A stretch of 33,647 nt of DNA from Gallionella sp. (GTDB taxonomy: Bacteria; Pseudomonadota; Gammaproteobacteria; Burkholderiales; Gallionellaceae): the NCBI GenBank assembly GCA_030652475.1, contig JAUSAO010000090.1, positions 1-33,647 of the forward strand. Reading direction: 5' to 3'. Shown one piece after another: positions 10,497-26,229 of this stretch. Position 1 is the first letter of the stretch, and each line of letters starts with the position of its first letter. A model generated the notes under the pieces. That model had not been told where the DNA came from and ran no database searches. It was given only the letters and a program-made list of their open reading frames with translations. Both the position numbers and the translations under genes were made by a program.

Positions 10497-10525
10497 TTAA
10501 ATAAAATCAATAAGTTGGAGTGGTT

Positions 10526-11356
10526 ATGTGCGGTACTTGTGGTTGTGGCGGTCGTGATGTGCTGATCGGGGGCAAACGCCCTGTGCGTGGCAGCGGAGTT
10601 CTGTCTTTCCGCAAGCCTGCGCCAGCCGGGGTGGAAACCGGACACGACCAGGAATCAACTGCGCAGTTACGCATCATTCAGGTCGAACGCGATCTGCTCG
10701 CCAAAAACAATGAGTATGCCAATGCCAACCGCTGCCAGTTGGCCGGGCAGGGCATATTTGCACTCAATCTGGTGTCCAGCCCCGGTTCCGGCAAGACCAC
10801 GCTGCTGGTCAAAACCATCACTGAACTGAATGGCGCGCTGCCGCTGGCGGTGATCGAAGGTGACCAGCAGACCGAAAACGATGCCGCACGTATTCGTGCC
10901 GCCGGTGCGCCGGCGCTGCAAATCAACACCGGCAAGGGCTGCCATCTGGATGCCCGGATGATCGCTCAGGCCATGCAACGTATGGATTTACAGGAGGACA
11001 GTCTGCTGCTGATCGAAAACGTCGGCAATCTGGTGTGTCCGGCCGGTTTTGATCTGGGTGAGGCGCATAAGGTGGTAATTCTGTCGGTGACCGAAGGCGA
11101 AGACAAACCGCTCAAATATCCCGACATGTTCCGCGCCGCCGACCTGATGCTGCTCAACAAATGCGATCTGCTGCCCTACCTGGAGTTTGATGCCGGGCTT
11201 GCTGTCGAATACGCGCAGCGCATCAATCCCGATCTGCGGGTGATCCGTATCTCGGCCAAGAGCGGCGAGGGTATGGCGGAGTGGCTGGACTGGATACGGG
11301 CGGGCTGCACGAAGACGGCGCAAGGCAGACAACGCCTCGCGCAAACCCTTGAGTAA
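10526..11356 (+). CDS. hypB: HypB, GTPase for nickel insertion
   Basis: This 276-residue protein starts MCGTCGCGG, where Cys2, Cys5 and Cys7 form the high-affinity N-terminal nickel site. The G-domain has Walker [10 protein letters not shown] (84-92), metal residues Cys139, His140 and Cys171, and NKCD (211-214). HypB hydrolyses GTP while nickel moves to HoxH. The histidine-rich store found in many HypB proteins is absent. The ATG at 10526 is preferred over the GTG at 10520 because of the conserved MCGTCGC start. GGAG precedes it. The 3' end overlaps hypF by 8 bases. Confidence 0.96.
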
Positions 11357-12431
11357 TCTGGTTTTATTACCCTTTTCCGGGCCGCCGGTGCTGGCTTGCG
11401 GCGCCTGGCTGAAGAACACGGTCTGCGTCTCGCAAGGCGATCAAGCGCATGTCTCGGAGTTGATCGGCGATCTGGGCACTGTCGAAGCGTGCAGCCTGTT
11501 GGAAACGACGGTGGCTGAGATGTGCGAGAGTGTGCAGCCCGCAATCGTCGCACACGACCTGCACCCCGATTTTTACAGTACGCAGTTTGCGCTCTCCTAT
11601 GCCGGGAAACATGGTTTGCCGACGCTCGCAGTGCAGCATCATCATGCCCATATTGCCGCGATCTGTGCAGAACATGGCCTTGCTGCACCCGTGCTGGGGC
11701 TGGCGCTGGACGGGGTGGGGCTGGGCACGGACGGTACGGCGTGGGGCGGCGAGTTGTTGCGCGTTGCCGGGGCAGATTTTCAGCGCCTTGGGTATCTGAG
11801 TCAGATAGCCATGCCGGGCGGCGACCGTGCCGCAACAGAGCCGTGGCGCATGGCGGCGGCGGTGCTGTTTCAGCTGGGGCGGGCTGACGAGATTGAGGCG
11901 CGTTTTTCGAATCAGCCGGGTGCGGCGACGGTGGTGGCGATGCTGCACCGTGGCCTGAATTGCCCGATGACTAGCAGCATGGGCAGACTGTTCGATGCCG
12001 CCGCCGGACTGCTGGGCGTGAATGAAATTCAGGCCTTTGAAGCCGAGGCCGCGATTTTGCTGCAAACACTGGCGCAGCATCATGGACGGGTTGACCCGAT
12101 GAACGCGGGTTACCGCATTACGCAAAACAACACGCTGGATTTTTTGCCGTTGCTCTCCATGCTGGCTGATTGCCGCGATGCCGCTTTCGGCGCGGCGCTG
12201 TTTCACGCCACGCTCGCTGTCGGGCTTGCCGAATGGGCACAACGTGCCGCCGATGAACATCACATCAACCACATCGCGCTGGGCGGCGGCTGCTTTTACA
12301 ACGAAATTTTATTGCGCAGCCTGTCGGATAAACTTGCCTCACAAGGGCTACAGGTACTGACCTCGCAACAACCCGGCGACAGCTTGATTTCACTTGGTCA
12401 GGCCTGGGTTGGAATGCAATCCATGCTCTGA
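11349..12431 (+). CDS. hypF: HypF, short form: Kae1-like carbamoyltransferase part only
   Basis: This 360-residue protein corresponds to the C-terminal half of ordinary (~750-residue) HypF. The Kae1-like metal site [10 protein letters not shown] is at 95-104, with DGTAWGGE and GGGCFYNE further on. The N-terminal acylphosphatase, zinc-finger and YrdC-like domains are missing, and the start sits within the end of hypB, so the gene was not simply cut there recently. A comparable short HypF1 is known from Ralstonia eutropha in hypA1B1F1, so this form may function, perhaps with a full HypF elsewhere. HypF makes the carbamoyl group that HypE turns into cyanide. The last residues (GMQSML) differ from those in the partial second copy at 24618. 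Confidence 0.9.
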
Positions 12432-12445
12432 TTAAAACTGGTAAA

Positions 12446-12475
12446 CCCACGGCTATGCCGGGGGACTCTCAGAGT
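12446..12475 (+). terminator. hairpin after hypF, possible weak terminator
   Basis: CCCACGGC-TAT-GCCGGGGG forms a stem with one mismatch, 15 bases after the hypF stop, followed by ACTCTCAGAGT. There is no T-run, so rho-independent termination is doubtful. Confidence 0.3.
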
Positions 12476-12540
12476 TTGACTGATGCGGAAATCAAAGTCA
12501 CTTGCTGGTTACAATTGCAATTCCCTCCCCTTTCACGCCA

Positions 12541-12590
12541 GTGCGAGCAGCTTTGCTGCCGCACTCGGCGGGGATGCCCCTTCGCTCAAA
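12541..12590. repeat. hairpin element related to the hoxU 3' end
   Basis: GTGCG-AGCAGC and GCTGC-CGCAC form a stem of about ten pairs (12541-12564), followed by GGATGCCCCTTCGC. Block order and partial identity match 6844-6890. Confidence 0.4.
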
Positions 12591-12649
12591 ACAAGAAGCG
12601 CATGGCGCGACTATGTTTTTAGGGGAAGACCCTTGCGATTTTGCGGGTA

Positions 12650-12750
12650 CAAGGGGAGGGGGAAAGGCAGGTGCAGTGGCATACTCTCCCCCCTTCAAGG
12701 GGGGAGTTGGAGGGGGGGTGGGGAAAGAATTTCCCAATGGATAATTTGGC
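12650..12750 (+). repeat. BIME-like palindromic repeat, copy 2
   Basis: It contains GGGGAGGGGGAAAGGCAGG, then GCAGTGGCATACTCTCC, the core CCCCTTCAAGGGG, and ends TTTCCCAATGGATAATTTGG. It is nearly identical to, and in the same orientation as, the copy at 25674-25830, but lacks that copy's left arm. With it, this copy brackets the accessory segment. Confidence 0.8.
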
Positions 12751-12785
12751 TTTAATCAACATGCACGCCTAAATCTAAGTGACAC

Positions 12786-12814
12786 TTGACAATGACAGTT
12801 TAGCTGTCCATGAT
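12786..12814 (+). promoter_or_regulatory. candidate MerR-type promoter/operator
   Basis: A consensus TTGACA (12786-12791) is followed after 17 bases by CATGAT (12809-12814). The spacer holds the inverted repeat GACAG-N5-CTGTC (12794-12808). An inverted repeat between -35 and -10 is the usual layout of MerR-family operators. It lies directly upstream of the merR-like gene, so autoregulation is plausible. The -10 is weak and would make the message almost leaderless. Confidence 0.4.
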
Positions 12815-12821
12815 GCGTGTT

Positions 12822-13259
12822 ATGAACGATACATCCACATCCAGCTACTCCATCGACGAACTGGCGACATTGACCGAGTTGCCTCGTCGCACCGTGCGTT
12901 ATTACATTCAGCAGGGCTTGGTTGACCGTCCTGTGGGTGAAAAACGCTCTGCCTATTACACAACAGCTCATTTGGAACAATTGCTGACCATCCGTAAATG
13001 GCAACAGGCAGGGCTATCCTTGGATCGCATCCGAGAAATCCTCGCCAGTGGAAAGGGCGTCGTGTTGCCGCCGCCGCGTCCGCGTGGCGCAGGCACCGTC
13101 GAGGTGTGGAGCCATCTTGTGGTTAGCGACGGACTGGAAATTACATTGGAACCCTCGCGCGCAGGACTCAGCCCCGAACAGGTGCGGAATTTCTTCCGTT
13201 CCGTTACCGCACTTTATGAACAACTCAAACAGGAAGCCCAGGATTATGACAACGAATAA
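12822..13259 (+). CDS. MerR-family transcriptional regulator
   Basis: The protein has a MerR winged helix-turn-helix: YSIDELATLTELPRRTVRYY with the RYY..GL wing region, then an R-x-Y-x2 segment and a short helix. About 145 residues follow from the ATG at 12822; ATGs at 12810 and 12813 are alternatives. The C-terminal half (about 80-145) lacks the cysteines of metal-sensing MerR proteins, so the effector is unknown. It overlaps the VIT/VWA gene by 14 bases and precedes a SprT-like gene. It is therefore probably the local regulator of this three-gene unit. Confidence 0.85.
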   Translation: MNDTSTSSYSIDELATLTELPRRTVRYYIQQGLVDRPVGEKRSAYYTTAHLEQLLTIRKWQQAGLSLDRIREILASGKGVVLPPPRPRGAGTVEVWSHLVVSDGLEITLEPSRAGLSPEQVRNFFRSVTALYEQLKQEAQDYDNE

Positions 13260-15561
13260 CCCAAATTTCGCGATCCTCAATGGCCCTGCCGGTAAGGAAG
13301 AAAATCCTGCCATCCTCAAGGATAAAAACGGTAATGACGTTGCGTTAGAGGGCGTGAAAGTGCGTGGTAGCTTGCAGGGATTAATGGCGTAAGTCGAGGT
13401 AGAGCAGGCTTATACCAACCCGCAGAACACCAATATTGAGACTATCTATACCTTTCCCTTGCCGATGGATGCCACACTGCTCGGGTTTGAAGTTGAAATT
13501 GACGGCAAAAAGTTGCTGGGCAGTGTTGTCGAAAAGAGACAGGCTGAACGGCGCTATGAAGATGCCATCACCGATGGCGATAGCGCCATCATGCTCGAAG
13601 AAGTGGGGCCCGGACTATATACGGTTAGTGTCGGTAACCTGATGGCGGGTGAGTCGGCAGTCATCCGCTATCGCTATGCCTTGCTGCTTTCATGGCAGGG
13701 AGATCAACTGCGATTCATGTTGCCCACCACGATTGCACCTCGTTACGGAGATCCAGAGGCCGCCGGATTTCAACCTCATCAAGTGCCGACAGCTTCACTG
13801 CTCGTTGATTATCCACTGGATATTGCTATATCGGTCGAGGGTGAACTCGCCCATGCGATTTTGTCGAGTCCGAGCCATGCGATTGCATTCGAGCGATTCG
13901 ACAGTAGTGTCGTGGTACAGCTAAATCGCAAGGCTTATCTCGATCGCGACTTTATCCTGATCCTTCAGTCGGAAACAGCTCAGTCATCCTGTGTACTGAC
14001 AGCAGATCGTGAAGGATACGTGGCGCTGGCTTCGCTGCGGATACCTCAGCTCAAAAATGCCACTCAGCTCCCGTTGGCGTTGAAGGTGGCTATCGATTGT
14101 TCCGGCTCCATGGCCGGTAGCAGCATTAACCAGGCACGCAAGGCTGCCCTGGAGATATTGAATCTGCTGCGACCTCATGACTATTTCAACATCACGCTTT
14201 TTGGAGACAGGCAGTCACATCTATTCCCGACGCTGGTTTCGGCGAGTGTGCAGAATATAACGGCAGCATCTGACAAGCTGGCAAGGCTTGATGCCGATAT
14301 GGGCGGTACTGAAATGGAGAATGCGCTGAAAGCCGTTTTTGCCATGCGCGGCGTCAAAGAAAACTCTACGGTGCTTCTGATTACTGATGGCGAAATTTAT
14401 GAGCATGAAAAACTTGTTGATCGTGCACGGGAATCCGCTCACTGCGTGTTTACGGTGGGCGTCGGTAATGCGGTGAATGAAGTTTTTCTGCATGCCCTGG
14501 CGGATGCCACGGGGGGTGCCTGTGAACTGGTCAGCCCCCAGGAGGGGATGGCCGAACGCGTGGTGATGCAATTTCACCGCATGCGTCAACCCAAACTCGG
14601 GGCGTTGTGTGTCGAATGGCCGGGCATGCCGAAGTGGCAAACTCCGTTGCCAAAAGCCGTTTTCGCGGGAGATACCGTGCAAGTATTCGCGGGTTTTTTG
14701 CAGCCGGTTAAGGGCGAGGTATCACTGGCCATTGTTGGCTCGAACAGCGTTATTTCTCCGATAGTTTCAATTCATAATGCCGAACTTCCTCGTGTGGCCG
14801 CAGCGCAACGATTGAGATTGGCAAGCGAAACTGAGGAGCTGAAACTGGCGCTTGATTATCAGCTGCTGTCCAAACGGACCAACTATCTGGTGATTGCGGA
14901 GCGTGCCGACAAAACTGATGATCTGCCTGAATTGCATCATGTCCCTCAAATGTTGGCAGCTGGATGGGGTGGTGTCGGAGACAGTTCAATGCTGCACGCT
15001 GCCCGATCTACAGTCAATTATTGTGAGCTGGACGGTCCCACCCTAATGAGAAGCGCTAGACGTGCCGCTGTTGATACAACAGGTAAGTCAGGTGTTGACA
15101 CCTACGATATACCCAGTTTCTTGCGTAAGCAGGAGAATAGTACAGGCCCTGAAAACTCCGTCATGGCAACTATAAAATCCAACTTTGCCAAATCAACACT
15201 GTCTGGCCCAGCAAAATTTATTTCAAACTTTGCAAACCATTACTCTTCTTTCCTGGGGCTGACCGAGTTGCCGAACTCCATTGCAGAATTGGTGGCAATT
15301 GAGATTGATGAAGAGATGGCATGCGCCTTGCGGGTGATGGTGGCTTCGGGGTATGACGAAGCCGAGGTGATTGCCGCCTTTATCTATGCGCTCTCAGAAT
15401 CGACGATCGGCAATAAATTCAGTCGCTCATTTAAGCGCACCATTCTCAAACACTGGAAAAACGTGGTCAAAAATCATGACATCGATGCTGAAATGAAAGA
15501 GGCGTTGGCAATGGTTACTTTGGAGTCGTGGAACTGGCAGTTTCAGACTGCGGAAGGCTAA
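13246..15561 (+). pseudogene. VIT + von Willebrand factor A domain protein, interrupted by one in-frame TAA
   Basis: Reading from the ATG at 13246 (MTTNNPNFAIL), the frame meets a single TAA at 13390-13392. It then stays open in the same frame to 15561, making a 771-codon gene. The VIT domain (about residues 25-160) spans the stop. The VWA domain follows with an intact MIDAS motif DCSGS at 284-288 and ITDGE later. The C-terminal ~200 residues are not recognised. VIT/VWA proteins bind partners through metal-dependent adhesion. No frameshift is present and the 700 codons after the stop show no decay. The options are a recent C-to-T change in a CAA codon, read-through, a sequencing error, or reinitiation (ATG at 13459, without an evident ribosome binding site). 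It overlaps the merR gene and is followed 2 bases later by the sprT-like gene. Confidence 0.8.
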
Positions 15562-15563
15562 AG

Positions 15564-16322
15564 ATGAATATTGCGAGTACGCCAACCAGCGTTTTTTATG
15601 CGGCACTCCAGTCCGCCTACGACCACTTCAATATCGAGCTGTTCGGCGGCAAACTTCCGCACTGCCTGATTACCTTGCGCTCGGCCAGCAGGGTATATGG
15701 TTATTACCACGCAGGGCGATTCGTCTCACCTGCCGGTGAACAGATTGATGAAATTGGCTTGCATCCAGGATTTTTCACCCTGCGGCCGATCGAATCGGTG
15801 TTGTCGACGCTGGTTCACGAAATGATCCACCACTGGCAGGAACACTTCGGCACACCAACGCAGACCAATGCGCATAACCAGGAATGGGCAAAAAAGATGG
15901 AATCCTTGGGCTTGATGCCATCCGGCACGGGACTACCCGGTGGCAAAAAAACGGGGCGTTCGGTGAGCCACCACATCATTCCCGATGGCGTATTCCTGAT
16001 TGCCTGTCAAAAACTGGTGGCAAGCGGATTTGCCATTCCCTGGCTGGACAGACATTTGCCAGCAGAACCGGAAAGTCAGACGATCGTGGCGCAGGTATTG
16101 AAAGAGGCGGGTATTGAATATCAGGCATCCCCCGCACCGATTGCGCAGTTACCGGAAGAAATCCAAGGCAAGACGGCAGTTTATCGACCCGCACCGAAGA
16201 AAGCGCCAACACGGGAAAAGCTGATTTGCCCGCAGTGCGCCAGCAAGGCTTGGGTAAGCCCGGAAACCAAAATAATCTGCGGGGTTTGCAATGTGGCGAT
16301 GCAAGGCGCTGGATCAAAATAG
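15564..16322 (+). CDS. SprT-like zinc metalloprotein
   Basis: This 252-residue protein has the SprT-like (Spartan-type) metal site HEMIHHW (His85, Glu86, His89), with a likely third ligand His106 in AHNQEW. A C-terminal zinc ribbon follows (Cys222, Cys225, Cys239, Cys242). Between them is a ~70-residue spacer rich in Pro and Ala. SprT-like domains are predicted metalloproteases, and the eukaryotic member Spartan cuts DNA-protein crosslinks. The bacterial role is unclear. GGAAGG precedes the ATG, two bases after the VIT/VWA stop, so the two are one operon. A decayed copy of its 3' part lies at 24727-24800. Confidence 0.85.
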   Translation: MNIASTPTSVFYAALQSAYDHFNIELFGGKLPHCLITLRSASRVYGYYHAGRFVSPAGEQIDEIGLHPGFFTLRPIESVLSTLVHEMIHHWQEHFGTPTQTNAHNQEWAKKMESLGLMPSGTGLPGGKKTGRSVSHHIIPDGVFLIACQKLVASGFAIPWLDRHLPAEPESQTIVAQVLKEAGIEYQASPAPIAQLPEEIQGKTAVYRPAPKKAPTREKLICPQCASKAWVSPETKIICGVCNVAMQGAGSK

Positions 16323-16420
16323 GCGATCAGTAATGAGTATTCACCGTACTTGTCAATGTAACAGCAAACCGGCTTAGCCTTCGTGTTAGCATCGTATGAA
16401 ACCAATGGCAGGTGCCAAAT

Positions 16421-19400
16421 ATGAATAATTTGTTGAGTTCTTTCACTGACGAACTAAGAAAACTCCTTAATTCGTGGTTGCCCCAATTGTCTACCGACTG
16501 GTGGAAGCGCAACGTAGTGGACATATTGACCTATCAACAACAAGAGCGGATAAAACAATCGCGCATTGTTGATTTATCCGGTCTCGATCTGGCTGCGTTG
16601 CTGCGAGTACTCGATCAAAACTGGTTTGAACTGTCACAACGATTCAACTGGCCGAAAGAGGCTAGAAACTGGCTTAAAGAGGCGCAGACGATACGCAACC
16701 GTTGGGCGCACGCACCTTCTGGCGATGCCGATCCGCACGATGCTTATCGCGATGCCGATACGATGGAGCGCCTGGCAAAAATGCTTATTGTCGGAGAGGC
16801 TGCACAAACTCAAATAACTCTTTATAAACAGCAGCAACTGGCGCGGCTTTCGCCACAGCCAGCTTCAACACCCTCTTCGCCGCCTGTCATAACTCCTATT
16901 CTTGAAACACCGTCAGCTCCCGTAGCACCTGAAGCTGCAATTCTGCCGCCAGCAGCTATCATCCAGCATGATTTTTCGCCCGGTCAGTTGGTGCGTCTCA
17001 AATCCAATCGGAACAAGATTTTTCCGATTCTTTCGGTATTGCCAAACTCGGGCGTGGAGCTTCGCTATCAGGTTTTTGAGGACAACAAGCTAACCAATTA
17101 TTACGAGAGCCAGCTTGAAAGTATTCCAGAGATACAGGATGAACGGACACCGATTCAGCTTGCGGAGTTTGACGCCCGCCTGACTTCTCTGTTGTTGTCA
17201 TCGCCATCTTCCGGCAATCTGTATTCGCTGCACTCCGGGCGTGTGCGTTTCGTGCCTTATCAATATCGTCCCGTACTCAAGTTATTGCGCTCAGACCGCC
17301 CGCGTTTACTGATCGCCGACGATGTAGGGGTCGGCAAGACCATCGAGGCAGGGCTGATTCTGAAAGAGCTGCAAGCACGCTCTGAAATCAAATCTGTACT
17401 GATTATCTGCCCGAAACCACTGGTGGCAGAAAGCAAGTGGCGCAACGAAATGAAGCGTTTCGGCGAGGAATTCACCCATCTTGACGGTGATACCTTGCGT
17501 CATTGCTTGCACGAAACAGACCTTGATGGCGAATGGCCGCGATCGCACAGCCGAGCCATTCTGCCGTTTTCCCTGATAGACGATGCCCTGCTCAATGGCA
17601 AACCGCAAAAACGCGGCAAAAAAACCAAGGGTTTGCTCGACCTCGATCCGCCGCCGCGTTTTGATCTGGTCATCGTGGATGAGGCGCATCACATTCGCAA
17701 CGCAAATACCTGGCTGCACCAAGGCGTAAAGTTTTTTTGCGACAACGCCGAAGCGGTGGTTTTTATGACTGCCACGCCTATCCAGATGGGCAATCAGGAT
17801 TTATTCACCCTGCTCAATGTGCTGCGTCCCGATCTGGTAATAGATCGCGCCAGTTTTGATTTTATGGCTGAACCCAATCCACACATTCACGCGGCGGCAA
17901 ATCATCTGCGCTCTGCGGCAGTTGATGGACAGCAAAACGCACTGGCCGAATTAAAAATGGCGGCAGGATGCTTCTCTTTCATAGAAACGCCGGATTTTCA
18001 GCGTGTACTCGACACGCTTACCGAACCGGAAATCAGCCCCGCTACACGGGTTGCCCTGATTCGTGAAGTTGAGCGGTTTTCCACCTTTGACAGCCTTATC
18101 AACCGCACGCGACGGCGCGACATCGGCAATTTCACCACCCGCAAGCCGGAGACAGTTTCCGTTCCCTTCACCGATGCCCAGCAGGTTTTTCACGACCAGT
18201 TACTCGCCACGGCGGTACGCATTTACAAACAAAACAACGGGCAGCAAGCGGTGTTGTTCATGCTGTCCACACTGCGTCGGCAGGCTTCCAGTTGCCTCTA
18301 CGCGCTGGCTCCGTTCATAGATCAATGGCTGGATGGCAAGCTGGACGCTCTTGGGCTGGCGGAAATCAACGATGATGAAACTGACGAAATGGAGGTTTTG
18401 CCGCCGGGCAGTTTGCAGTTGGAAATTGAGCAACTGCGCCTGACCGCAAGAATGCTAGATCCTGCCGATCCCAAACTGGAGGCTTTCCTTGCCATCGTGC
18501 GCGACAAACAAACCCTGCACAATAACAAGCTGCTGGTGTTCACCAGTTTTCGCCATACCCTGTCATATCTGGAGCGGAAGCTACTCGCCGCAGGCATCCG
18601 CGTCGGTGTGATTCACGGCGGCGTGGCGGACGAAGATCGCCGCGACATTCGCCGACGCTTTGCCCAAGCCAAGGAACAGCCTGATACGCTGGACGTGCTT
18701 CTTTCCACGGAAGTCGGCAGCGAAGGCCTGGACTTCCAGTTCTGTGATGGCATGGTCAATTATGATCTACCCTGGAATCCGATGCGCATCGAACAGCGCA
18801 TCGGGCGTATAGACCGCTACGGGCAGAAAAGCGAAGTAGTGGTCATTAACAATCTCATTACTCCTGGCACGGTGGATGCCGACATCTACGAACGCTGTTT
18901 GCTACGCATCGGTGTATTCCAGCAAGCGCTGGGCGCGAGCGAAGAAATTCTCGGCCAGATCAGCAAAGAACTGCACGCCATTTCCGAGAGCTTCGACCTG
19001 ACCCCACATCAACGCCAGGAACGGCTGCAACAACTGGCCGACAATGAACTGCGCGAGATTCAGGAACAGGAAACGCTGGAAATCCGCGCCACTGAGCTAT
19101 TCGGTTTGAGCCTGCCCAATGACGATGAACTGACCACCACGACCAGTGGCTGGCTCAAGCCAGAGGCATTGCAAGCGGCTGTTAGTCGTTATCTGCGCGA
19201 CCGCTCCGGCAAAGAGCAGGAAGTTATTCTGGGCAGCCAGGCTCTCAAGACTCTGCGACTGGATGCCGATGCGCGCACTCGTTTGCTGGAAGATTATCAG
19301 AAATTTAAAACCGATAATCAGGAAGCAAGAACCTGGGAACGCTGGCTCAAAGGAAACACGCCTCACCTGGAAATCACCTTCGATCAGGACTGTGCCAGTG

Positions 19401-19999
19401 ACAACACCAAGGCGGTTTTGCTGCACCCCGCACACCCCCTACTGCGCCAGGCAGCAGCTCACTTACAACCGCGCCAGCCGGTTTATGTTCAGTGTCGGGT
19501 GAAGGCAGTGGAACTGGCCGCTGGGGCATATCCCTTCGCGCTTTATCAGTGGCACAAACAAGGTGTGCGTGCTGATTGTGAACTGGTGGCGGTCGCGGAA
19601 TCGCCGGAGATCGAAGCGAAATTGTTTAGCTTGTTGCGCAATGCTGTTGCAACAGAACAAACGGCATTGCCCGCACAAACGGCATTTGACGCACTCGAAG
19701 CCACCCACCATCAACGCTGGCGTGATACGTTGGCCAATCACAAGGAAGCCAACCAGCAATTGGTGGATTACAGACTGAACAGTCTGACAGCCAGCACCGA
19801 AGCGAGACTGCGGCAGGCGCAAGACCAGTTGAGCAAGGCTACAGACGAAAAAATCCGTACCATGAAACAGGCTGAACACGACCGCATCAAGGCTGACTAT
19901 TCCCGCCGCAAGGAAAAGCTGGAAGCCGCCAAGGAAGCTGCTGACATTCGTGCCGAGGTGGTGGCGTTTGGGGTGGTGATCATTGAGGAAAAAAGATGA
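16421..19999 (+). CDS. large SNF2/RapA-like helicase with N-terminal Swt1-type HEPN domain
   Basis: This protein has 1192 residues from the ATG at 16421 (AGGTG 6 bases upstream; a GTG at 16412 is less likely). Order of parts: an all-helical N-terminus with RNRWAH at 92-97, matching the HEPN ribonuclease motif R-N-x3-H; a Pro/Ser/Thr-rich linker (~145-190); a small beta-rich VRLKSN module as in RapA/DrmD-type helicases (~195-240); and the SF2 core. The core has DDVGVGKT (301-307), DEAH (420-423), MTATP, SEGLDF near 767 and RIGRIDRYGQ near 793. The C-terminus ends in a charged coiled coil. The helicase is predicted to move on nucleic acid, and the HEPN part may cut RNA. Its stop overlaps the GHKL ATPase start by 4 bases. 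It resembles DISARM DrmD in part, but no other DISARM gene is present. Confidence 0.85.
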   Translation: MNNLLSSFTDELRKLLNSWLPQLSTDWWKRNVVDILTYQQQERIKQSRIVDLSGLDLAALLRVLDQNWFELSQRFNWPKEARNWLKEAQTIRNRWAHAPSGDADPHDAYRDADTMERLAKMLIVGEAAQTQITLYKQQQLARLSPQPASTPSSPPVITPILETPSAPVAPEAAILPPAAIIQHDFSPGQLVRLKSNRNKIFPILSVLPNSGVELRYQVFEDNKLTNYYESQLESIPEIQDERTPIQLAEFDARLTSLLLSSPSSGNLYSLHSGRVRFVPYQYRPVLKLLRSDRPRLLIADDVGVGKTIEAGLILKELQARSEIKSVLIICPKPLVAESKWRNEMKRFGEEFTHLDGDTLRHCLHETDLDGEWPRSHSRAILPFSLIDDALLNGKPQKRGKKTKGLLDLDPPPRFDLVIVDEAHHIRNANTWLHQGVKFFCDNAEAVVFMTATPIQMGNQDLFTLLNVLRPDLVIDRASFDFMAEPNPHIHAAANHLRSAAVDGQQNALAELKMAAGCFSFIETPDFQRVLDTLTEPEISPATRVALIREVERFSTFDSLINRTRRRDIGNFTTRKPETVSVPFTDAQQVFHDQLLATAVRIYKQNNGQQAVLFMLSTLRRQASSCLYALAPFIDQWLDGKLDALGLAEINDDETDEMEVLPPGSLQLEIEQLRLTARMLDPADPKLEAFLAIVRDKQTLHNNKLLVFTSFRHTLSYLERKLLAAGIRVGVIHGGVADEDRRDIRRRFAQAKEQPDTLDVLLSTEVGSEGLDFQFCDGMVNYDLPWNPMRIEQRIGRIDRYGQKSEVVVINNLITPGTVDADIYERCLLRIGVFQQALGASEEILGQISKELHAISESFDLTPHQRQERLQQLADNELREIQEQETLEIRATELFGLSLPNDDELTTTTSGWLKPEALQAAVSRYLRDRSGKEQEVILGSQALKTLRLDADARTRLLEDYQKFKTDNQEARTWERWLKGNTPHLEITFDQDCASDNTKAVLLHPAHPLLRQAAAHLQPRQPVYVQCRVKAVELAAGAYPFALYQWHKQGVRADCELVAVAESPEIEAKLFSLLRNAVATEQTALPAQTAFDALEATHHQRWRDTLANHKEANQQLVDYRLNSLTASTEARLRQAQDQLSKATDEKIRTMKQAEHDRIKADYSRRKEKLEAAKEAADIRAEVVAFGVVIIEEKR

Positions 20000-22900
20000 G
20001 CATTGTCGAAGAGGTAAGGCGTGAGCGGGAAGACTTGGCGCGTGTACTGAAAAAACACACAGGGATAAGGAAAATTGTAGAAGATCTATACCCCGATAGC
20101 GCACATTTTATTTATGAGTTATTGCAAAACGCCGAGGATACTGGTGCAACCGAGGCGCAGTTCACACTTACGAAAACAAGCCTAGTGTTCGAACACAATG
20201 GTCGCCCCTTTGAACCAGAGGATATCTATGCCATTACGGACATAGGAGAAGGAACCAAGGCCAATGATGACGACAAAATCGGACGCTTTGGTGTCGGCTT
20301 CAAGGCTGTGTTTGCCTATTCTGAAACGCCTCACATTTGGTCCCCAAGTTTTTCTTTCAAGATAACTGATCTGGTACTGCCAAGTGCGCTTGATCCAAAA
20401 GCTGCGCTGGGCAAAAAGACACGCTTTGAATTTCCGTTCAACAATCCGAAGAAAATTCCCAATATCGCCTATGACGAGGTTGATGCTGGCCTGAAGGAGC
20501 TGGCGGAAACAACGCTGCTCTTTCTTTCACATCTGGAATCAATCCGGTGGCAGAACGCAACAGACGAATCTGGGGAAGTTCTTCGGTTCAAACACTCCGA
20601 AAATCACTTCGAAGTTTTCAAACAGGCTGGTAACCAAACAACTTTCAGCTCCCATTTCCTAAAATTCGATCAACCAGTAGCGGGACTGGAAAAGCAGCGA
20701 ATCTCGGTAGCTTACGCACTCGATTTGCTGCCAAAAGTGCAAGATTTCGACCCAAAGAAAAAACTGGCTAATCAGCTAAAAATCATTCCTGCATCACCGG
20801 GGCGAGTGGCGGTATTCTTTCCTGCTAAGAGTGAAAAGTCTGGCCTTCGGTTTCATCTGCACGCACCCTTTGTGCCCGAGCTTAGCCGTGCCAGCATCAA
20901 GGAAACGGATGCGAATCTACCTCTCTTTCAGCAGCTTGCCACTTTGGCTGCGGCATCACTCCATCATATTCGCGATCTTGGCCTGCTCACTGCCGACTTT
21001 CTATCGGTATTACCCAATCTACAGGATGAAATTTCTAAGCCCTATCTGGGTATTCGCAAGGCCATCATCGAGGAGATGAACGAACAGCCACTTACGCCTA
21101 CATACGCAAAGACACATGCGCCAGCCAAGTATCTCCATCAGGCCAAAGCATCACTCAAGGAATTACTATTGAACGATGACATTGCGTTCCTCGTAGATTC
21201 CGACGACAAGCCGCCGCAATGGGCGTCGGCGCGTGCTCTACAAGGCACGAATATTGAGCGATTCATGACAGGGTTGGCGATAACCGATTGGGATGTCGAA
21301 CAGTTCGTTGATTTGTTGAGTAAGAAGGCATCAAATGCCAGACGACTAATTCTCAATCCCCCACATTTTATAACTGAACCAGACGCTGAATTTATGATAT
21401 GGCTTTCAGGAAAGTCGGTGGAATGGCATCAGGAGATGTATGCGTTGCTATACACCGACTATTTGTTGAACGCTGGGTGGCAAAAAGATAGCCGCATCAA
21501 TAACCTCAAAAAATTACGAATTATTCGCCTGAGTAATAACGATTACAGTATCAGCGCCCAATGTTTTTTCCCAAACGATGGAATCGAACAGAATGACGTG
21601 CTGCCGCGTGTGGATATACGAACTTATACAGCAGGCAAAAAAAAGGGGCAGCAGGAGTCTGCGAAGAAATTTCTCGAAGAGATCGGTGTCCGTGAGGTGG
21701 GAGAAGCTGAACAGGTCGAAGCAATTCTGAAACAGCGATACACGAAGATCAACCGCAAGCCGTCAAAGAAGGATTTGAAGCGCTTCATTGCGCTACTTGA
21801 AAAAGAGCCTGATAAGGCAAACCTATTTACTTCGTATTTTATTTTCGAGAGCCAGGACGGCAAGTGGGGCCAGCCATGTCAGATATTCCTTGATCAGCCT
21901 TTCATGGATACTGGGCTCAATGCCTACTACGATGCCTTGGGGGAAGGTGCAAAGCGTGTTGCTTTGGCGGAAAGCTATCAGGATTGCGGCGTTGCCATCA
22001 AGAAGCTGGTGAAATTTGCTGAGGCTGTTGGTGCGCAAACACGATTAGAGATTACCGAAACAATGTGCTATTCGAATCCGCAGTGGTCATATCTTCGCTC
22101 GGTCGGCGGCGAGCGGGAAACATCACCGATCAATCGAGATTATGTGATTGCAGGGATTGACAAGCTTCTGGCACAACCAACTTTGGCAATTTCGAAGCTC
22201 ATCTGGCAAACCATGTGCTCGTTACCCACGCATCCAGATTTTTTGTCGGCAACATATCGCCGGAATCAAAGCTCCGGTTCTCATCGTGCGGACTCACAAC
22301 TTGTTCATCGCCTCAAGGCAGTTGCATGGGTTCCGCAAGGTGATGGGGTATTTGTTCGCCCGGCAGAAGCTATTCGTGATTTGCTGCCTGAAGGGTTCCC
22401 GTTCGATCTAGGCTGGCCTTGGCTCAAAGCCATTCAGTTCGGGGAGGAAGCGGTCAAAAAATCTGTGGCATATCACCAGAAACAGACTGCCGCAGAGGAG
22501 TTGGGGTTTAACTCCGTAGAGGAGGCTGATAAATGGAAAAAAGTCAGGGATTCTGGCATCTCTCCTGATGAAATTCTTGCTCAACAGACACAACGTCAGC
22601 GTATCGCGCAACCAGAGGATTCTGTTCGTGATCCTGTCATCCGTCAAAAAAAGGTATTAGCCAACACCGCAGATGCTCCCAGCAAGGAAAGTGTCATGCT
22701 GGAACGCTCCATACAAAAAGGCATCTCTGACGTTACCGCGCAGGCTAGGGCATACCTACGCACCAAATGCAAAAACGCCGATGGGCAACTTGTCTGCCAG
22801 TGTTGTCACGATGAAATGCCATTCAAGCTGCGATCAGGCGATCACTATTTCGAAGCGGTTCAATGTGTGCGCGACCAGGATACCCACGATTTTCAAAATC

Positions 22901-23130
22901 GCCTCGCCCTTTGCCCAACCTGCGCCGCCATGTACCAGTACGCCCGTGAAACTGACGATGCTGAAATTCGTCGCCTCATCGTCGACCACGAAGCGCCAAA
23001 TACTGCGGCATCAGTTGAAATTCCTGTTCTCTTGGCGGGTAAGCAATATCAACTTCACTTCGTCGGCACTCACTGGTTTGATCTAAAAATAGTATTAAGT
23101 CAGCAAGGAATAATATGTCCGAGTACCTAA
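19996..23130 (+). CDS. sacsin-like GHKL ATPase with C-terminal degenerate HNH/zinc module
   Basis: This 1044-residue protein opens with a GHKL (Hsp90-type) ATPase of sacsin flavour. It has the N-box YELLQNAEDTGA (Glu41, Asn45, Asp48), FEHNGRPF (65-72) and the glycine-rich lid IGRFGVGFKAVF (95-106). A long helical middle without recognisable motifs follows. The C-terminus has CQCCH (934-938), a YFEAV segment and CPTC (973-976), the fold pattern of McrA-type HNH nucleases. The usual His-His after YxEV is Val-Gln, and the usual CxxCH is CPTCA, so nuclease activity is doubtful and a zinc-binding role more likely. Translation is coupled to the upstream helicase (4-base overlap) and it overlaps the start of a truncated gene. 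Function is unknown; the pairing suggests a two-component nucleic-acid-directed machine. Confidence 0.82.
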   Translation: MSIVEEVRREREDLARVLKKHTGIRKIVEDLYPDSAHFIYELLQNAEDTGATEAQFTLTKTSLVFEHNGRPFEPEDIYAITDIGEGTKANDDDKIGRFGVGFKAVFAYSETPHIWSPSFSFKITDLVLPSALDPKAALGKKTRFEFPFNNPKKIPNIAYDEVDAGLKELAETTLLFLSHLESIRWQNATDESGEVLRFKHSENHFEVFKQAGNQTTFSSHFLKFDQPVAGLEKQRISVAYALDLLPKVQDFDPKKKLANQLKIIPASPGRVAVFFPAKSEKSGLRFHLHAPFVPELSRASIKETDANLPLFQQLATLAAASLHHIRDLGLLTADFLSVLPNLQDEISKPYLGIRKAIIEEMNEQPLTPTYAKTHAPAKYLHQAKASLKELLLNDDIAFLVDSDDKPPQWASARALQGTNIERFMTGLAITDWDVEQFVDLLSKKASNARRLILNPPHFITEPDAEFMIWLSGKSVEWHQEMYALLYTDYLLNAGWQKDSRINNLKKLRIIRLSNNDYSISAQCFFPNDGIEQNDVLPRVDIRTYTAGKKKGQQESAKKFLEEIGVREVGEAEQVEAILKQRYTKINRKPSKKDLKRFIALLEKEPDKANLFTSYFIFESQDGKWGQPCQIFLDQPFMDTGLNAYYDALGEGAKRVALAESYQDCGVAIKKLVKFAEAVGAQTRLEITETMCYSNPQWSYLRSVGGERETSPINRDYVIAGIDKLLAQPTLAISKLIWQTMCSLPTHPDFLSATYRRNQSSGSHRADSQLVHRLKAVAWVPQGDGVFVRPAEAIRDLLPEGFPFDLGWPWLKAIQFGEEAVKKSVAYHQKQTAAEELGFNSVEEADKWKKVRDSGISPDEILAQQTQRQRIAQPEDSVRDPVIRQKKVLANTADAPSKESVMLERSIQKGISDVTAQARAYLRTKCKNADGQLVCQCCHDEMPFKLRSGDHYFEAVQCVRDQDTHDFQNRLALCPTCAAMYQYARETDDAEIRRLIVDHEAPNTAASVEIPVLLAGKQYQLHFVGTHWFDLKIVLSQQGIICPST

Positions 23131-23213
23131 AGCCCCCCAGGCCAGTTAATTCATATTGCAAACTACCGGAGAATCTTGACACCCCAGAGGCTCTTGCAAA
23201 ACGCCTCGCTTGA
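23115..23213 (+). pseudogene. 5' remnant of a third operon gene, cut by the IS
   Basis: An ATG at 23115, with AGGA 6 bases upstream, overlaps the GHKL ATPase gene by 16 bases, in the same coupled style as the preceding pair. It reads MSEYLKPPRPVNSYCKLPEN and onward for 24 native codons until the IS left end at 23187, then stops within the IS at 23211. The rest of the gene is not found on the other side of the IS. Its product cannot be identified from 24 residues. Confidence 0.6.
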
Positions 23214-24618
23214 GCGGAATTAATCGCCGGATAAAGGGCAAAAAAAGGTGGAAGTGGGCGGCCATTGCTGGCAAGATCAAGGTTCTAACGACTCAATCAA
23301 CGCCCGATATGAATACTACCCAACGAACCGGAATTATGCAACGCTGGCGCATCGTTCAAGAAGAATTGATGCCGGAATTGCGAGCCGAGGTTGGCGCCCT
23401 GACGCCGAAATTGGTGCAAGTGGTGCATACCCTGGAGTGGGTACGTATCGAGGAGTTTGTGAGTTCGGCTTGGGGCGGATATGGACGTCCCGAGCATGAT
23501 CGAAAAATGTTGGCGAGCGCCTTCGTAGCGAAGGCGGTATTGGGTTTGTCGACGACCGCAGGGTTGATTGAACGCTTGGCAATAGATGGTGCGTTGAGGC
23601 GCATCTGTGGTTTTTCGATGTGGAAGAAACTGCCGAGCGAATCGACTTTCTCGCGTGCCTTTGCCGAATTTGCTGAGGCCGGGTTGGCGGAGCGCACGCA
23701 CGCGGCCTTGGTGAAAGAGACGCTGGGCGAGCAGTTGATTGGCCATATCAGTCGTGATGGAACGGCAATTGAAGCGCGCGAGAAGCCGGCCAAAAGAGAC
23801 AAAGCCGCAGCGCCTGCGCCTGTCGTGGCGAAAAAGCGTGGCCGCCCATGCAAAGGTGAGGTTCGTGAAGTAAAACCGGGAAAGCTGGAATTGCAACGTG
23901 GCAAGCCACTGGCGGAACTCCTGAAAGAATTGCCGCGCGAGTGCGACCGTGGCAGCAAGTGCAATGCGCAGGGTTACAAGAATAGCTGGAATGGCTACAA
24001 ACTGCATATTGATACGGCGGATTGTGGTGTTCCGGTGAGTGCGCTGTTGTCGAGCGCGTCAATGCACGACAGTCTGGCGGCGATGCCGCTGGCCATGATG
24101 ACGGCAGAACGCGTGACGAACTGCTACGACTTGATGGATGCGGCTTATTGCAGCAGTGTGTTGCGGGCACACAGTCGCAGCCTGGGGCATGTGCCGCTGA
24201 TTGACCACAATCCGCGCAAAGGCGAGAAGATCGAATTCACGCTCAGCGAGGCGCAGCGTTACAAGGAGCGCAGTCAGGCGGAGCGGACAAATGCGCGACT
24301 GAAAGATGACTACGGTGGCCGATATATTCGGGTTAGAGGCAATGCCAAAGTAATGTCGCACTTGATGTTCGGCATACTGGCGCTGACGGCCAATCAGTTG
24401 ATGCGACTACTCACGTAGCCGCATCAAGACCGACAGGTAAAAAGCAGTAAAAGGTGCGTTGGCGAAAGTCGGCGCGTTAGCCCATGGGCATAACGGAGCA
24501 AGAACCATGATTCCGGACGGGTAAAACGCAAAATGTTGCTTGAATCGTGAAAAATCTCATCCTGGAATGAGACATTCCCCGCTGAAACCATTGGGTTCAG
24601 CTATTTTGCAAGAAGCTC
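23187..24618 (+). mobile_element. IS5/IS1182-like insertion sequence (about 1.43 kb)
   Basis: Terminal inverted repeats are GAGGCTCTTGCAAAA at 23187-23201 and, reversed, GAGCTTCTTGCAAAA at 24604-24618 (13 of 15 identical). One transposase gene lies between them, and the 185 bases after it hold two hairpins (TCTCAT-ATGAGA and CTGAAACC-GGGTTCAG). Flanking bases (CACCCCA left, AAGGGCT right) show no target duplication, so this is not a simple fresh insertion. The family name is by resemblance only. Confidence 0.8.
23309..24418 (+). CDS. DDE transposase, IS5/IS1182-like
   Basis: This 369-residue protein starts at the ATG at 23309 (MNTTQRTGIMQRW). The N-terminal ~130 residues resemble the DUF772-type helical domain of these transposases. 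The acidic triad is probably Asp150 (SRDGTAIEA), Asp277 (DLMDAAY) and Glu325 (SQAERTNARLKD), with the C-terminal YxRVRG..KV..HLMFGI block typical of the group. A basic insert around 160-185 separates the first two acids. The frame is intact, so the element may be active. An upstream in-frame extension to 23210 uses a TTG and is not favoured. Confidence 0.9.
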   Translation: MNTTQRTGIMQRWRIVQEELMPELRAEVGALTPKLVQVVHTLEWVRIEEFVSSAWGGYGRPEHDRKMLASAFVAKAVLGLSTTAGLIERLAIDGALRRICGFSMWKKLPSESTFSRAFAEFAEAGLAERTHAALVKETLGEQLIGHISRDGTAIEAREKPAKRDKAAAPAPVVAKKRGRPCKGEVREVKPGKLELQRGKPLAELLKELPRECDRGSKCNAQGYKNSWNGYKLHIDTADCGVPVSALLSSASMHDSLAAMPLAMMTAERVTNCYDLMDAAYCSSVLRAHSRSLGHVPLIDHNPRKGEKIEFTLSEAQRYKERSQAERTNARLKDDYGGRYIRVRGNAKVMSHLMFGILALTANQLMRLLT

Positions 24619-24719
24619 AAGGGCTACAGGTACTGACCTCGCAACAACCCGGCGACAGCTTGATTTCGCTCGGTCAGGCCTGGGTGGCAGCGCAATTGTT
24701 TAACGTGGAACTCGCGTAG
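24618..24719 (+). pseudogene. hypF: 3' fragment of a second hypF
   Basis: The first 68 bases match positions 12342-12409 of the intact hypF at 66 of 68 positions, in the hypF reading frame ([20 protein letters not shown]). The frame then continues AWVAAQLFNVELA to a TAG, where the intact gene ends AWVGMQSML. It begins exactly at the IS right end. It has no start and cannot be expressed as HypF. It is a scar of a duplicated or displaced hypF. Confidence 0.88.
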
Positions 24720-24726
24720 TTGAGGT

Positions 24727-24800
24727 AATCAAAGGCAAGACGGCGGTTTATCGGTCAACAGCGAAGCAAGCGCCAATCCGGAAAACTGACCTGTCCGACC
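24727..24800 (+). pseudogene. decayed fragment of the sprT-like gene 3' part
   Basis: This segment aligns with 16161-16235 of the sprT-like gene at roughly three quarters identity, including GGCAAGACGGC.GTTTATCG and AAGCGCCAA. There is one base missing, so the frame is lost. It follows the hypF fragment after 7 bases, whereas in the main locus the corresponding parts lie 3.7 kb apart. Confidence 0.7.
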
Positions 24801-24825
24801 AATTGTATAAATCAGGAGGCCAATA

Positions 24826-25668
24826 ATGAAACCTCAATCCGCGTTATTTGAAAACCATGAAATCCGCCGCGTATATGACGAGAGTACGGAGACGTGGTTT
24901 TTCTCGGTTATTGATATTATTCAGGTGCTTACTCAACAGTCCGATTATCAGACAGCGCGTAAGTATTGGAACAAACTGAAAGAGCGGCTGGATAAGGAAG
25001 GCAGTCAACTGGTGACAAATTGTCACCAGTTGAAAATGACCGCTGAGGATGGCAAGCAGCGGCTCACTGATGTCGCTACCGCCGAAACATTGTTGCGTCT
25101 GGTGCAGTCGGTGCCTAGCCCGAAGGCAGAGCCGATTAAGCTATGGCTGGCGAAGGTGGGCTATGAGCGGATGCAGGAGTTGGCGGATCCCGCCCGTTCA
25201 TTGGATCGCGCGCGCGAAACCTGGCAAAAGCACGGTCGCAGCGAGAAGTGGATACAGCAGCGCATGACTGGACAGGAGACGCGCAACAAGCTGACCGATT
25301 ACTGGGCAAATCACGACATCAGGCAAGGCGAGGAATATGCGATTCTCACCAACCTCATTCATCAGGAATGGGCGGACGTAGATGTGAAAGCGCACAAGAC
25401 GCTGAAGGGGCTGAAGTCGCAAAACTTGCGCGATCACATGAGCGAAGCCGAATTGATTTTTACCGCGCTGGCAGAATTGGCCACCCGCCAAATCGCCGAG
25501 AGTGTCGAGGCAACGGGGTTGGGCGAGAACAAGAAGGCCGCGAAGACCGGCGGCGGCATCGCCAAAAAAGCGCGCTTGGAACTGGAAGAAAAAACCGGCA
25601 ATAAAGTGGTCAGCGGTGATAACTATCTACCACCAAGTAAGCAAAAATTGGTGCAGAAAAAGGATTGA
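24826..25668 (+). CDS. Bro-N domain protein, DinD/antirepressor-like
   Basis: This 280-residue protein has an N-terminal Bro-N domain (residues ~10-105: IRRVYDESTETWFFSVIDII, then the conserved TNCHQLK and LTDVATAETLLRLVQSVPSP). A C-terminal part follows that resembles DinD (LKGLKSQNLRDHMSEAELIF, near 190-215). Bro-N domains bind DNA and occur in phage antirepressors. DinD of E. coli is SOS-induced and inhibits RecA. The present role is not known. An excellent AGGAGG (24814-24819) precedes the ATG. No LexA box was recognised upstream. Inside the gene lies a 12-base perfect inverted repeat (25006-25032). It stands alone between the hypF/sprT scars and repeat copy 3, consistent with an accessory gene. 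Confidence 0.85.
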   Translation: MKPQSALFENHEIRRVYDESTETWFFSVIDIIQVLTQQSDYQTARKYWNKLKERLDKEGSQLVTNCHQLKMTAEDGKQRLTDVATAETLLRLVQSVPSPKAEPIKLWLAKVGYERMQELADPARSLDRARETWQKHGRSEKWIQQRMTGQETRNKLTDYWANHDIRQGEEYAILTNLIHQEWADVDVKAHKTLKGLKSQNLRDHMSEAELIFTALAELATRQIAESVEATGLGENKKAAKTGGGIAKKARLELEEKTGNKVVSGDNYLPPSKQKLVQKKD

Positions 25669-25673
25669 ACCCG

Positions 25674-25830
25674 GATTGTTCATTAGCTGAATTTAACCCA
25701 TCCCCACCCCCAACCCTCCCCTTGAAGGGGAGGGGAAAAGGCAGGAACAGTGGCATACTCTCCCCCCTTCAAGGGGGGAGTTGGAGAGGGGATGGGGGAA
25801 GAATTTCCCAATGGATAATTTGGGTTGAAT
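25674..25830 (+). repeat. BIME-like palindromic repeat, copy 3
   Basis: It runs from GATTGTTCATTAGCTGAATT, identical to the reverse of the copy 1 end at 6159, through CCCTCCCCTTGAAGGGGAGG and GTGGCATACTCTCC, to TTTCCCAATGGATAATTTGG. It has two palindromic cores. It is in the same orientation as copy 2 and opposite to copy 1. Confidence 0.85.
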
Positions 25831-25974
25831 ATTCGCTGTACTTCTATCGCCGTACTGTAACGACTTGTTACCGCCGAAAAGGGAATCCGCATAAACACGC
25901 TCGTGAGGATCGAAGACGGATTTGATATTGGCTGCGCTGAACCGGTTCACTGATGAGTTGACCGTAACGTAGTT

Positions 25975-26105
25975 GGAGCAAGCTTGTCCTAGTGTGAGCC
26001 GCGATATGATTCGGCGTGTTTTACGTGAGCAGCAAAGTGAAAAAGTTGTTGAATGCCAGGGGCGCGGGCCTGCGGCGCGACGGAAGAAGAGGGTAATTAC
26101 CCTTT
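25975..26105 (+). pseudogene. C-terminal remnant of a winged-helix (Fic-type?) protein
   Basis: The open stretch reads LEQACPSVSRDMIRRVLREQ and continues with a GRGPAAR motif to a TAG near 26105. The pattern (CP.VSRDMIR.VLR..., then a GxGxxA wing) resembles the C-terminal winged helix of Fic-family and related proteins, recalled from memory and not tested. No upstream part is present. Confidence 0.4.
26003..26046 (+). repeat. 44-base direct repeat, unit A
   Basis: It is identical to 26140-26183 at 42 of 44 positions (GATATGATTCGGCGTGTTTT and onward to GTGAAAAAGT). It lies within the winged-helix remnant, so the second unit is a partial duplication of that debris. Confidence 0.9.
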
Positions 26106-26139
26106 AGTCAGGGTGATAATAAGGGTAGCAAGCCACGTT

Positions 26140-26183
26140 GATATGATTCGGCGTGTTTTATGTGAGCAGCAACGTGAAAAAGT
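26140..26183 (+). repeat. 44-base direct repeat, unit B
   Basis: This is the second unit of the pair starting 137 bases after the first, ending 46 bases before hypC. The palindrome GGGTAATTACCC (26091-26102) lies between the two units. Confidence 0.9.
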
Positions 26184-26229
26184 AGAGTTAACGACTTTTT
26201 TGAATAGGCGATAACAAAGGGAATCTGAA

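Follow-up and report, generated by a model that had tools for sequence, protein, structure and literature searches.

A recurrent gene pair of a HEPN-SNF2 translocase and an exchangeable sacsin-type GHKL ATPase as a candidate mobile anti-invader module

Two very large overlapping genes of a Gallionella sp. draft genome raise the question of whether they belong together and, if so, what they do. Both lie in the window, the whole 33,647-nucleotide stretch analysed here (contig JAUSAO010000090.1, positions 1 to 33,647, assembly GCA_030652475.1), on its forward strand, as do all window features given below. Gene 1 (16421-19999) encodes 1192 amino acids and gene 2 (19996-23130) encodes 1044; they overlap by 4 bases (19996-19999), as the original prediction, made from the letters of the sequence, had stated, and neither has an internal stop. 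Twenty other distinct loci carry this pair in identical order, and among them the second gene has been exchanged while the first stayed much alike. The pair is likely a mobile two-gene anti-invader module, with a defence activity that we infer from these observations.

Architecture of the two genes

Searches of protein families confirmed that gene 1 joins a Swt1-type HEPN domain to a RapA-like SNF2 motor, as had been proposed; the motor is also DrmD-like. The HEPN domain (residues 8-120, positions 16442-16780) matched the Pfam family HEPN_Swt1 (PF18731) at 1.3e-12, with 48.5 bits against a gathering score of 27.5. Its motif R92-N-R-W-A-H97 has the form Rx4-6H, which is described as the endoRNase site of HEPN in the available text of PMC3710099. 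The pattern RNxWAH is kept in 12 of the 12 HEPN rows of the pair alignment, as well as in loci L046, L055 and L085. The motor core (residues 282-801, 17264-18823) matched SNF2-rel_dom at 2.3e-18 and Helicase_C at 3.8e-21, and the motifs GxGKT, DEAH, TATP and QRxGRxDRxGQ are all intact. SNF2 proteins are double-stranded DNA translocases. By sequence, the closest solved relative of this motor is RapA (5.5e-52). For the predicted structure of gene 1, VIA-align listed chiefly motors of the SNF2 family; these rows span residues 281-832 and do not bear on the HEPN and C-terminal parts. RapA is absent from the 50 rows listed, which excludes nothing.

Gene 2 is a sacsin-type GHKL ATPase, matching Pfam SACS at 1.2e-19 and the NCBIfam sacsin ATP-binding domain with 100 bits against a cut-off of 50. 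The GHKL motifs E41..N45 and GRFGVGF are intact in the window, and in the VIA list, over residues 13-433 only, the fold is nearest to sacsin and Hsp90. Proteins of the GHKL/Hsp90 fold close as dimers on ATP. The C terminus resembles EcoKMcrA (6ghc, E 1.8e-7) and holds a McrA-HNH-like zinc domain at about residues 923-991 (22762-22968), in which both Cys pairs are kept. An HNH endonuclease has catalytic histidines in its HNH site, and these are absent: LEVHHV and CPNCHRE of McrA align with FEAVQC and CPTCAAM of gene 2. Among the 17 readable GHKL C termini, the first histidine pair is kept in none and the histidine after CPNC in one (L013), and those of L015, L043 and L084 have also lost the second Cys pair. 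Because the HNH histidines are absent, this end is probably not a nuclease, and we rejected it as the nuclease effector. The sacsin-like ATPase and the zinc/HNH-like end of the original prediction were thus both recovered, the latter in a form that is probably not catalytic. Elsewhere, the McrA-like C-terminal domain was seen, with no ATPase match beside it, at L052:9087-9680 and on three Proteus mirabilis plasmids (H25-H27), and the genome of the window has a second, weak GHKL match at G000:C87:4176-4463 (L002).

These features bear on a restriction-like attack on DNA, in the sense of MORC/paraMORC, in which the GHKL protein would loop DNA, the SNF2 motor would translocate, cutting would fall to a nuclease either in cis or from a neighbour, and HEPN would serve as a late backup. 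Restriction systems that combine GHKL ATPases, SWI2/SNF2 helicases and HNH or EcoRII-like nucleases were predicted in 2008 (PMC2292703, available text), and the pair shares with those operons the GHKL ATPase, the SWI2/SNF2 helicase, the HNH theme and lateral mobility. Searches of Pfam, PADLOC and NCBIfam brought up no model bearing the name of a paraMORC1-5 family. The McrA-HNH-like C terminus, the absence of HEPN from 5 of the 21 loci and the restriction genes adjoining the pair in L015 (HsdR), L034 (Vsr) and L084 (Mrr) are also consistent with such an attack. However, besides the losses from the HNH-like end, the recurrent unit includes no methylase and no separate nuclease, HEPN sits on the helicase, and the GHKL protein is sacsin-type: none of 18 GHKL rows matched a regular expression of the MORC-specific motif GhXhhpXXRhl (S5 domain). 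We therefore consider restriction-like action rather unlikely.

Recurrence and partner exchange of the pair

Profile-checked searches placed the helicase directly upstream of the GHKL gene in 21 loci, the window and 20 others (L003-L006, L010-L013, L014, L015, L032, L034, L042, L043, L046, L047, L048, L055, L084 and L085). No two are copies, the top megablast identity over 500 bases being 88%, and 13 of them show the 4-base gene overlap. L010-L013 lie on plasmids, whose hosts are Rhizobium, Ensifer and the archaeon Methanomethylovorans; the Ensifer plasmid is conjugative. Co-occurrence beyond close relatives, which had been suggested as a check, was thus observed. HEPN is fused to the helicase in 15 of the 21 loci, absent in five (L010-L013 and L015) and unreadable in L048. 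Where it is missing in the Rhizobiaceae (L010:6169-6699, L011:6160-6714 and L012:6173-6703), a conserved gene of 176-184 amino acids overlaps the helicase start; it looks sigma-factor-like by eye, and the two scanned (L010 and L011) had no Pfam match. In L046 (5523-9028) the helicase is split into a HEPN-bearing open reading frame (ORF) of 361 amino acids and a motor ORF of 806-808, through either damage or sequencing error, and the GHKL gene of L055 is fragmented at a contig end. Left out of the 21 is L053 (genome G421, 570-2495), apparently a deletion remnant, where a single ORF passes from HEPN and the initial third of the helicase straight into the GHKL C terminus; genes after it resemble a nucleotidyltransferase/HEPN pair by eye.

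The occurrence of the pair is rare and patchy. The GHKL protein as query matched 4 of 274 genomes, 3 of them with the pair, and the GHKL profile matched 8 of 398 and 9 of 399 genomes, 4 and 4 with the pair, the genome of the window being included each time; the profile found none in 6 other listed genomes of the genus. Among E. coli genomes, 82 of 5426 matched, the 10 rows listed showing 75.5% identity over 98 bases of the motor; nowhere was 80% of the query covered. One of 50,697 phage records had a partial GHKL match.

Searches led by the helicase gave a tighter linkage. Close-subfamily helicases (>1,100 bits) numbered 3 in 300 genomes of the order, all paired, and 4 in 398 genomes of the phylum, again all paired, together with one remnant; the window is included in both counts, paired loci were the source of the profile, and scoring was limited to the two top candidates of each genome. 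The helicase of genome G810 is the split one, whose larger piece alone scores 1239. All three plasmid helicase matches at E 1e-80 are paired, and the same three plasmids have a full-length GHKL match. In the viral collection, 3 of 3 full-length helicase matches among those listed are paired, one being the contig of L034. In the next tier of helicases (451-526 bits), a GHKL match was present in none of six stretches of 7-19 kb. The protein that follows the helicase of this tier in L154, L156 and L157 contains, as judged by eye, a stretch resembling Hsp70/actin (LDFGT-AFTK or LDFGT-SATK), and the five neighbours scanned (L153, L154 and L156-L158) had no Pfam match; this is perhaps a parallel pairing of a helicase with a chaperone-type ATPase.

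To compare the two genes, 18 of the 21 pairs were aligned, L046 and L055 being left out as broken and L085 as too divergent. Identity to the window falls to 27% for the helicase and 22% for the GHKL protein, and across the pairs the identities of one protein go with those of the other (Mantel r 0.47, a value reached in 0 of 5000 permutations). Helicase and GHKL identities to the window agree in L003 (87% and 81%) and L005 (84% and 75%) and are discordant in L043 (85% and 23%) and L048 (89% and 27%) and, conversely, in L004 (50% and 72%). DNA homology between the window and L043 extends over 16419-19978, stopping 18 nucleotides before the GHKL ATG; that with L048 likewise ends at 19978, and both loci retain the gene order and the 4-base overlap. 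One faulty assembly does not explain the discordance, because L043 and L048 come from two different genomes. In addition, faster evolution of the GHKL gene alone is insufficient to produce two GHKL classes at one helicase distance, or these breakpoints. As judged from these alignments, the helicase stayed much alike through more than one exchange of its GHKL partner. The GHKL gene itself is also mosaic, with a C terminus that was swapped separately: L005 resembles the window up to about 22485, beyond which it differs (C terminus 36% identical), while its C terminus is 71%, its ATPase 35% and its middle part 17% identical to those of L042; between L015 and L084, identity is 78% for the helicase, 69% for the GHKL C terminus and 25% for the ATPase. 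The genes had been proposed to form one unit; the linked pair does recur, but exchange of the GHKL partner shows that its composition is not fixed.

The same data bear on whether a Tiamat-like GHKL gene and a DrmD/RapA-like helicase gene, each a defence gene in its own right, are mere neighbours in islands. The nearest PADLOC families, TmtA for the GHKL protein (196 bits) and DrmD for the helicase (394 bits), would fit this, as would the GHKL relatives that occur without the helicase. Against it stand the pairing of every close-subfamily helicase from the helicase-led searches, the order kept across exchanges and the correlated identities, and we regard independence as improbable.

Genomic setting

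A third gene, lost in the window, had been proposed downstream of the pair. The ORF in question exists, overlapping gene 2 by 16 bases (23115-23213, 32 codons), and an inverted repeat of insertion sequence (IS) type starts at about 23182, after some 22 codons. A tblastn search with its peptide in the window and the first nine loci found nothing, and the best match in 158 loci, aside from the window's own copies (L001 and L016), had an E-value of 0.31. The DNA of L003 matches the window at 82% identity over 15551-23097 and then stops; a 206-amino acid ORF and HEC-01-like genes follow the pair there. Downstream of the pair, L011 has a RecB-like gene, L014 what looks by eye like a DUF262-type gene, and L005 a small ORF with a gene that by eye is of AlbA type; ORFs on the opposite strand follow in L006, L010, L015, L034, L043, L046 and L047. 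Because the peptide has no homologue in the loci searched and the downstream genes differ between loci, we rejected the lost third gene, did not count the ORF in the system, and conclude that the recurrent unit consists of two genes.

In the window, the pair lies within an insertion of 13.8 kb (12425-26218). On its left are hydrogenase genes ending with hypF (11349-12431) and on its right are hypC (by eye), hypD and a HypE-like gene. For comparison, 11 sister stretches were taken from the best-matching of 26 genomes of the genus with hypD. In five of them (L073, L077, L079, L081 and L082) hypF leads directly into hypC, with matches 8-39 nucleotides apart; the hypF match ends early in L072, L078 and L080, and only the hypC side matched in L074 and L075. 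Since the junction carries no insert in sister genomes, the window carries the insertion. In L076 (G1030), about 4.5 kb separate the two matches (~10500-15030); this is perhaps a different insertion, and the junction is a possible hotspot.

The insertion is composite, as indicated by a second copy of the hypF 3' end (24618-24696, 92% to 12342-12420), a scrap of a second SprT-like gene (24727-24785, 81% to 16160-16218) and a 106-bp repeat, 92% identical, near both ends (12651-12756 and 25725-25830), which may mark the boundaries. Its other content comprises a MerR regulator, a VIT/VWA protein, a Bro-N protein, an SprT-like metalloprotease gene just upstream of the pair (15564-16322), which is upstream in L003 too, and an IS1182-like element (23182-24623). 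This element has a transposase ORF (23210-24418) and an imperfect inverted repeat (23182-23201 and 24604-24623), and its ends are approximate because it is a single copy in this draft genome. A mobile, defence-type setting with an IS had been proposed; mobility and the association with defence genes were supported, with the correction that the IS sits beside the pair.

The association with defence genes is seen in other loci. PADLOC models at 1e-5 matched 14 of 20 flanking proteins, which had been picked as promising and not at random, in 9 of 11 loci, the match in L005 being weak. They included HsdR, AbiEi, Vsr, DndH, Hachiman/Lamassu-like proteins and HEC-01AB; the pair adjoins Hachiman/Lamassu-like genes in L012, an ABC-three-component system in L010, HsdR in L015 and AbiEi in L032. 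Because of the choice, these neighbours support a defence setting without measuring enrichment. They also bear on a role outside defence, as a RapA-type module for recycling RNA polymerase or as a chaperone module for stress, to which RapA as the nearest solved motor relative and the sacsin- and Hsp90-like fold would point. Such a role is very improbable: rare and patchy presence, carriage on plasmids, defence-gene neighbours, the HEPN fusion and the exchange of one partner are unlike a housekeeping function.

Known systems and proposed role

Is the pair a named system? As the original prediction supposed, no exact match to one was found: PADLOC and NCBIfam gave distant relatives and no model of the pair, among the best 25 of 47 PADLOC families in the case of gene 1. 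The best relative of gene 1 over nearly the whole motor is DrmD of DISARM (PDLC02623, 394.5 bits; NF038317, 340 bits), but the NCBIfam score lies below the cut-off of 610, gene 1 has an N-terminal HEPN domain, and its partner is a GHKL ATPase. A DISARM locus contains DrmA, DrmB, DrmC and a methylase; none of these three Drm proteins was matched among six other window proteins scanned with PADLOC. For RapA, a housekeeping protein, the NCBIfam score of gene 1 is 182 against a cut-off of 576. The 196 bits of gene 2 are to a PADLOC model of TmtA (Tiamat) that has no stated cut-off. TmtA is likewise a sacsin-type GHKL ATPase and is a single-gene system; gene 2 has a McrA-like C terminus and its type is paired with a helicase in the 21 loci, relatives without one also existing. 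DISARM, RapA and Tiamat were thus rejected as names for the pair, the scores being under the cut-offs or no cut-off being given.

Closer precedents exist in the literature. The available text of PMC3710099 (2013) gives WQE_15321, a fusion of a Swt1-like HEPN to a SWI2/SNF2 ATPase, as an active HEPN; compared by architecture only, it equals gene 1, and that text mentions no GHKL partner. In GHKL-Shedu VcSduA, a tested phage defence protein, the GHKL ATPase is proposed to control the effector, but the nuclease is fused to the GHKL protein and no helicase is mentioned in the portion available (PMC12137116). In the open PubMed Central literature, as far as its texts were available and without subscription papers, we found nothing naming the pair of a sacsin-type GHKL ATPase and a HEPN-helicase, its two-gene form or its partner exchange. 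Because HEPN-SNF2 fusions and GHKL-SNF2 operons had already been predicted, the pair is a variant of a known theme and not wholly new.

The best explanation as a whole, to which we assign a probability of about 45%, is a mobile anti-invader module in which a constant HEPN-translocase works with a variable GHKL recognition subunit. The constant part would be a HEPN-carrying, RapA-like SNF2 translocase moving on double-stranded DNA, and the partner a sacsin-type GHKL ATPase expected to form an ATP-closed dimeric clamp. The GHKL protein would engage the DNA or protein of an invader and close on ATP, and its closed form would license the translocase. Where HEPN is present, activation would cleave RNA and stop the infected cell, with HEPN as a co-effector. 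The pair probably fights viruses. The GHKL protein is the most likely recognition subunit because it is the variable, exchangeable part; the specific assignment of recognition to GHKL and of RNase effector to HEPN is tentative.

Several points weigh against this explanation. First, the evidence for defence lies in sequence and genomic context. The flanking proteins were a chosen set; even so, those of L047 (2 proteins) and L013 (1) had no PADLOC match, the pairs in L042, L043 and L046 sit among genes that are housekeeping-like by eye, and the scan of six other window proteins gave 0 hits, among them the nearest neighbours of the pair (SprT and VIT/VWA; the other four were ORFs outside the insertion). 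Second, 5 of the 21 loci lack HEPN, which therefore cannot be the sole effector, and the pair showed no further intact nuclease. The predicted structure of gene 1 is poor (mean predicted local distance difference test score 61.5), and the GHKL row of L084 fails the GxFGxGF pattern. Third, GHKL relatives without the helicase (for example, L033, L035, L036, L044, L045 and L049-L051) occur roughly as often as relatives accompanied by it, and score alone fails to separate the two. The constant pairing of the helicases may be biased, because of the profile from paired loci and the two candidates per genome; this caveat is eased by L085, where a divergent helicase (38% identical) has as its partner a 1570-amino acid sacsin-type protein of another lineage. 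Finally, GHKL could be a fast-changing target of phage inhibitors instead of a sensor, which would drive exchange too.

More speculatively, the pair may be an unnamed immune module with interchangeable receptors, in which one HEPN-translocase would serve many sacsin-type GHKL clamps, swapped whole or by domain to change recognition in the manner of type I restriction specificity subunits; if so, sacsin-like proteins might have originated in immunity. To our knowledge, the triggers of GHKL ATPases (sacsin, MORC and Tiamat) are mostly unknown. If the explanation is true, near-identical helicases paired with different GHKL partners would be a natural experiment, whose comparison would show which part sees the invader. 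In people, sacsin is linked to a neurodegenerative ataxia (PMC3710099, available text), and the sacsin fold would gain a possible immune setting in prokaryotes.

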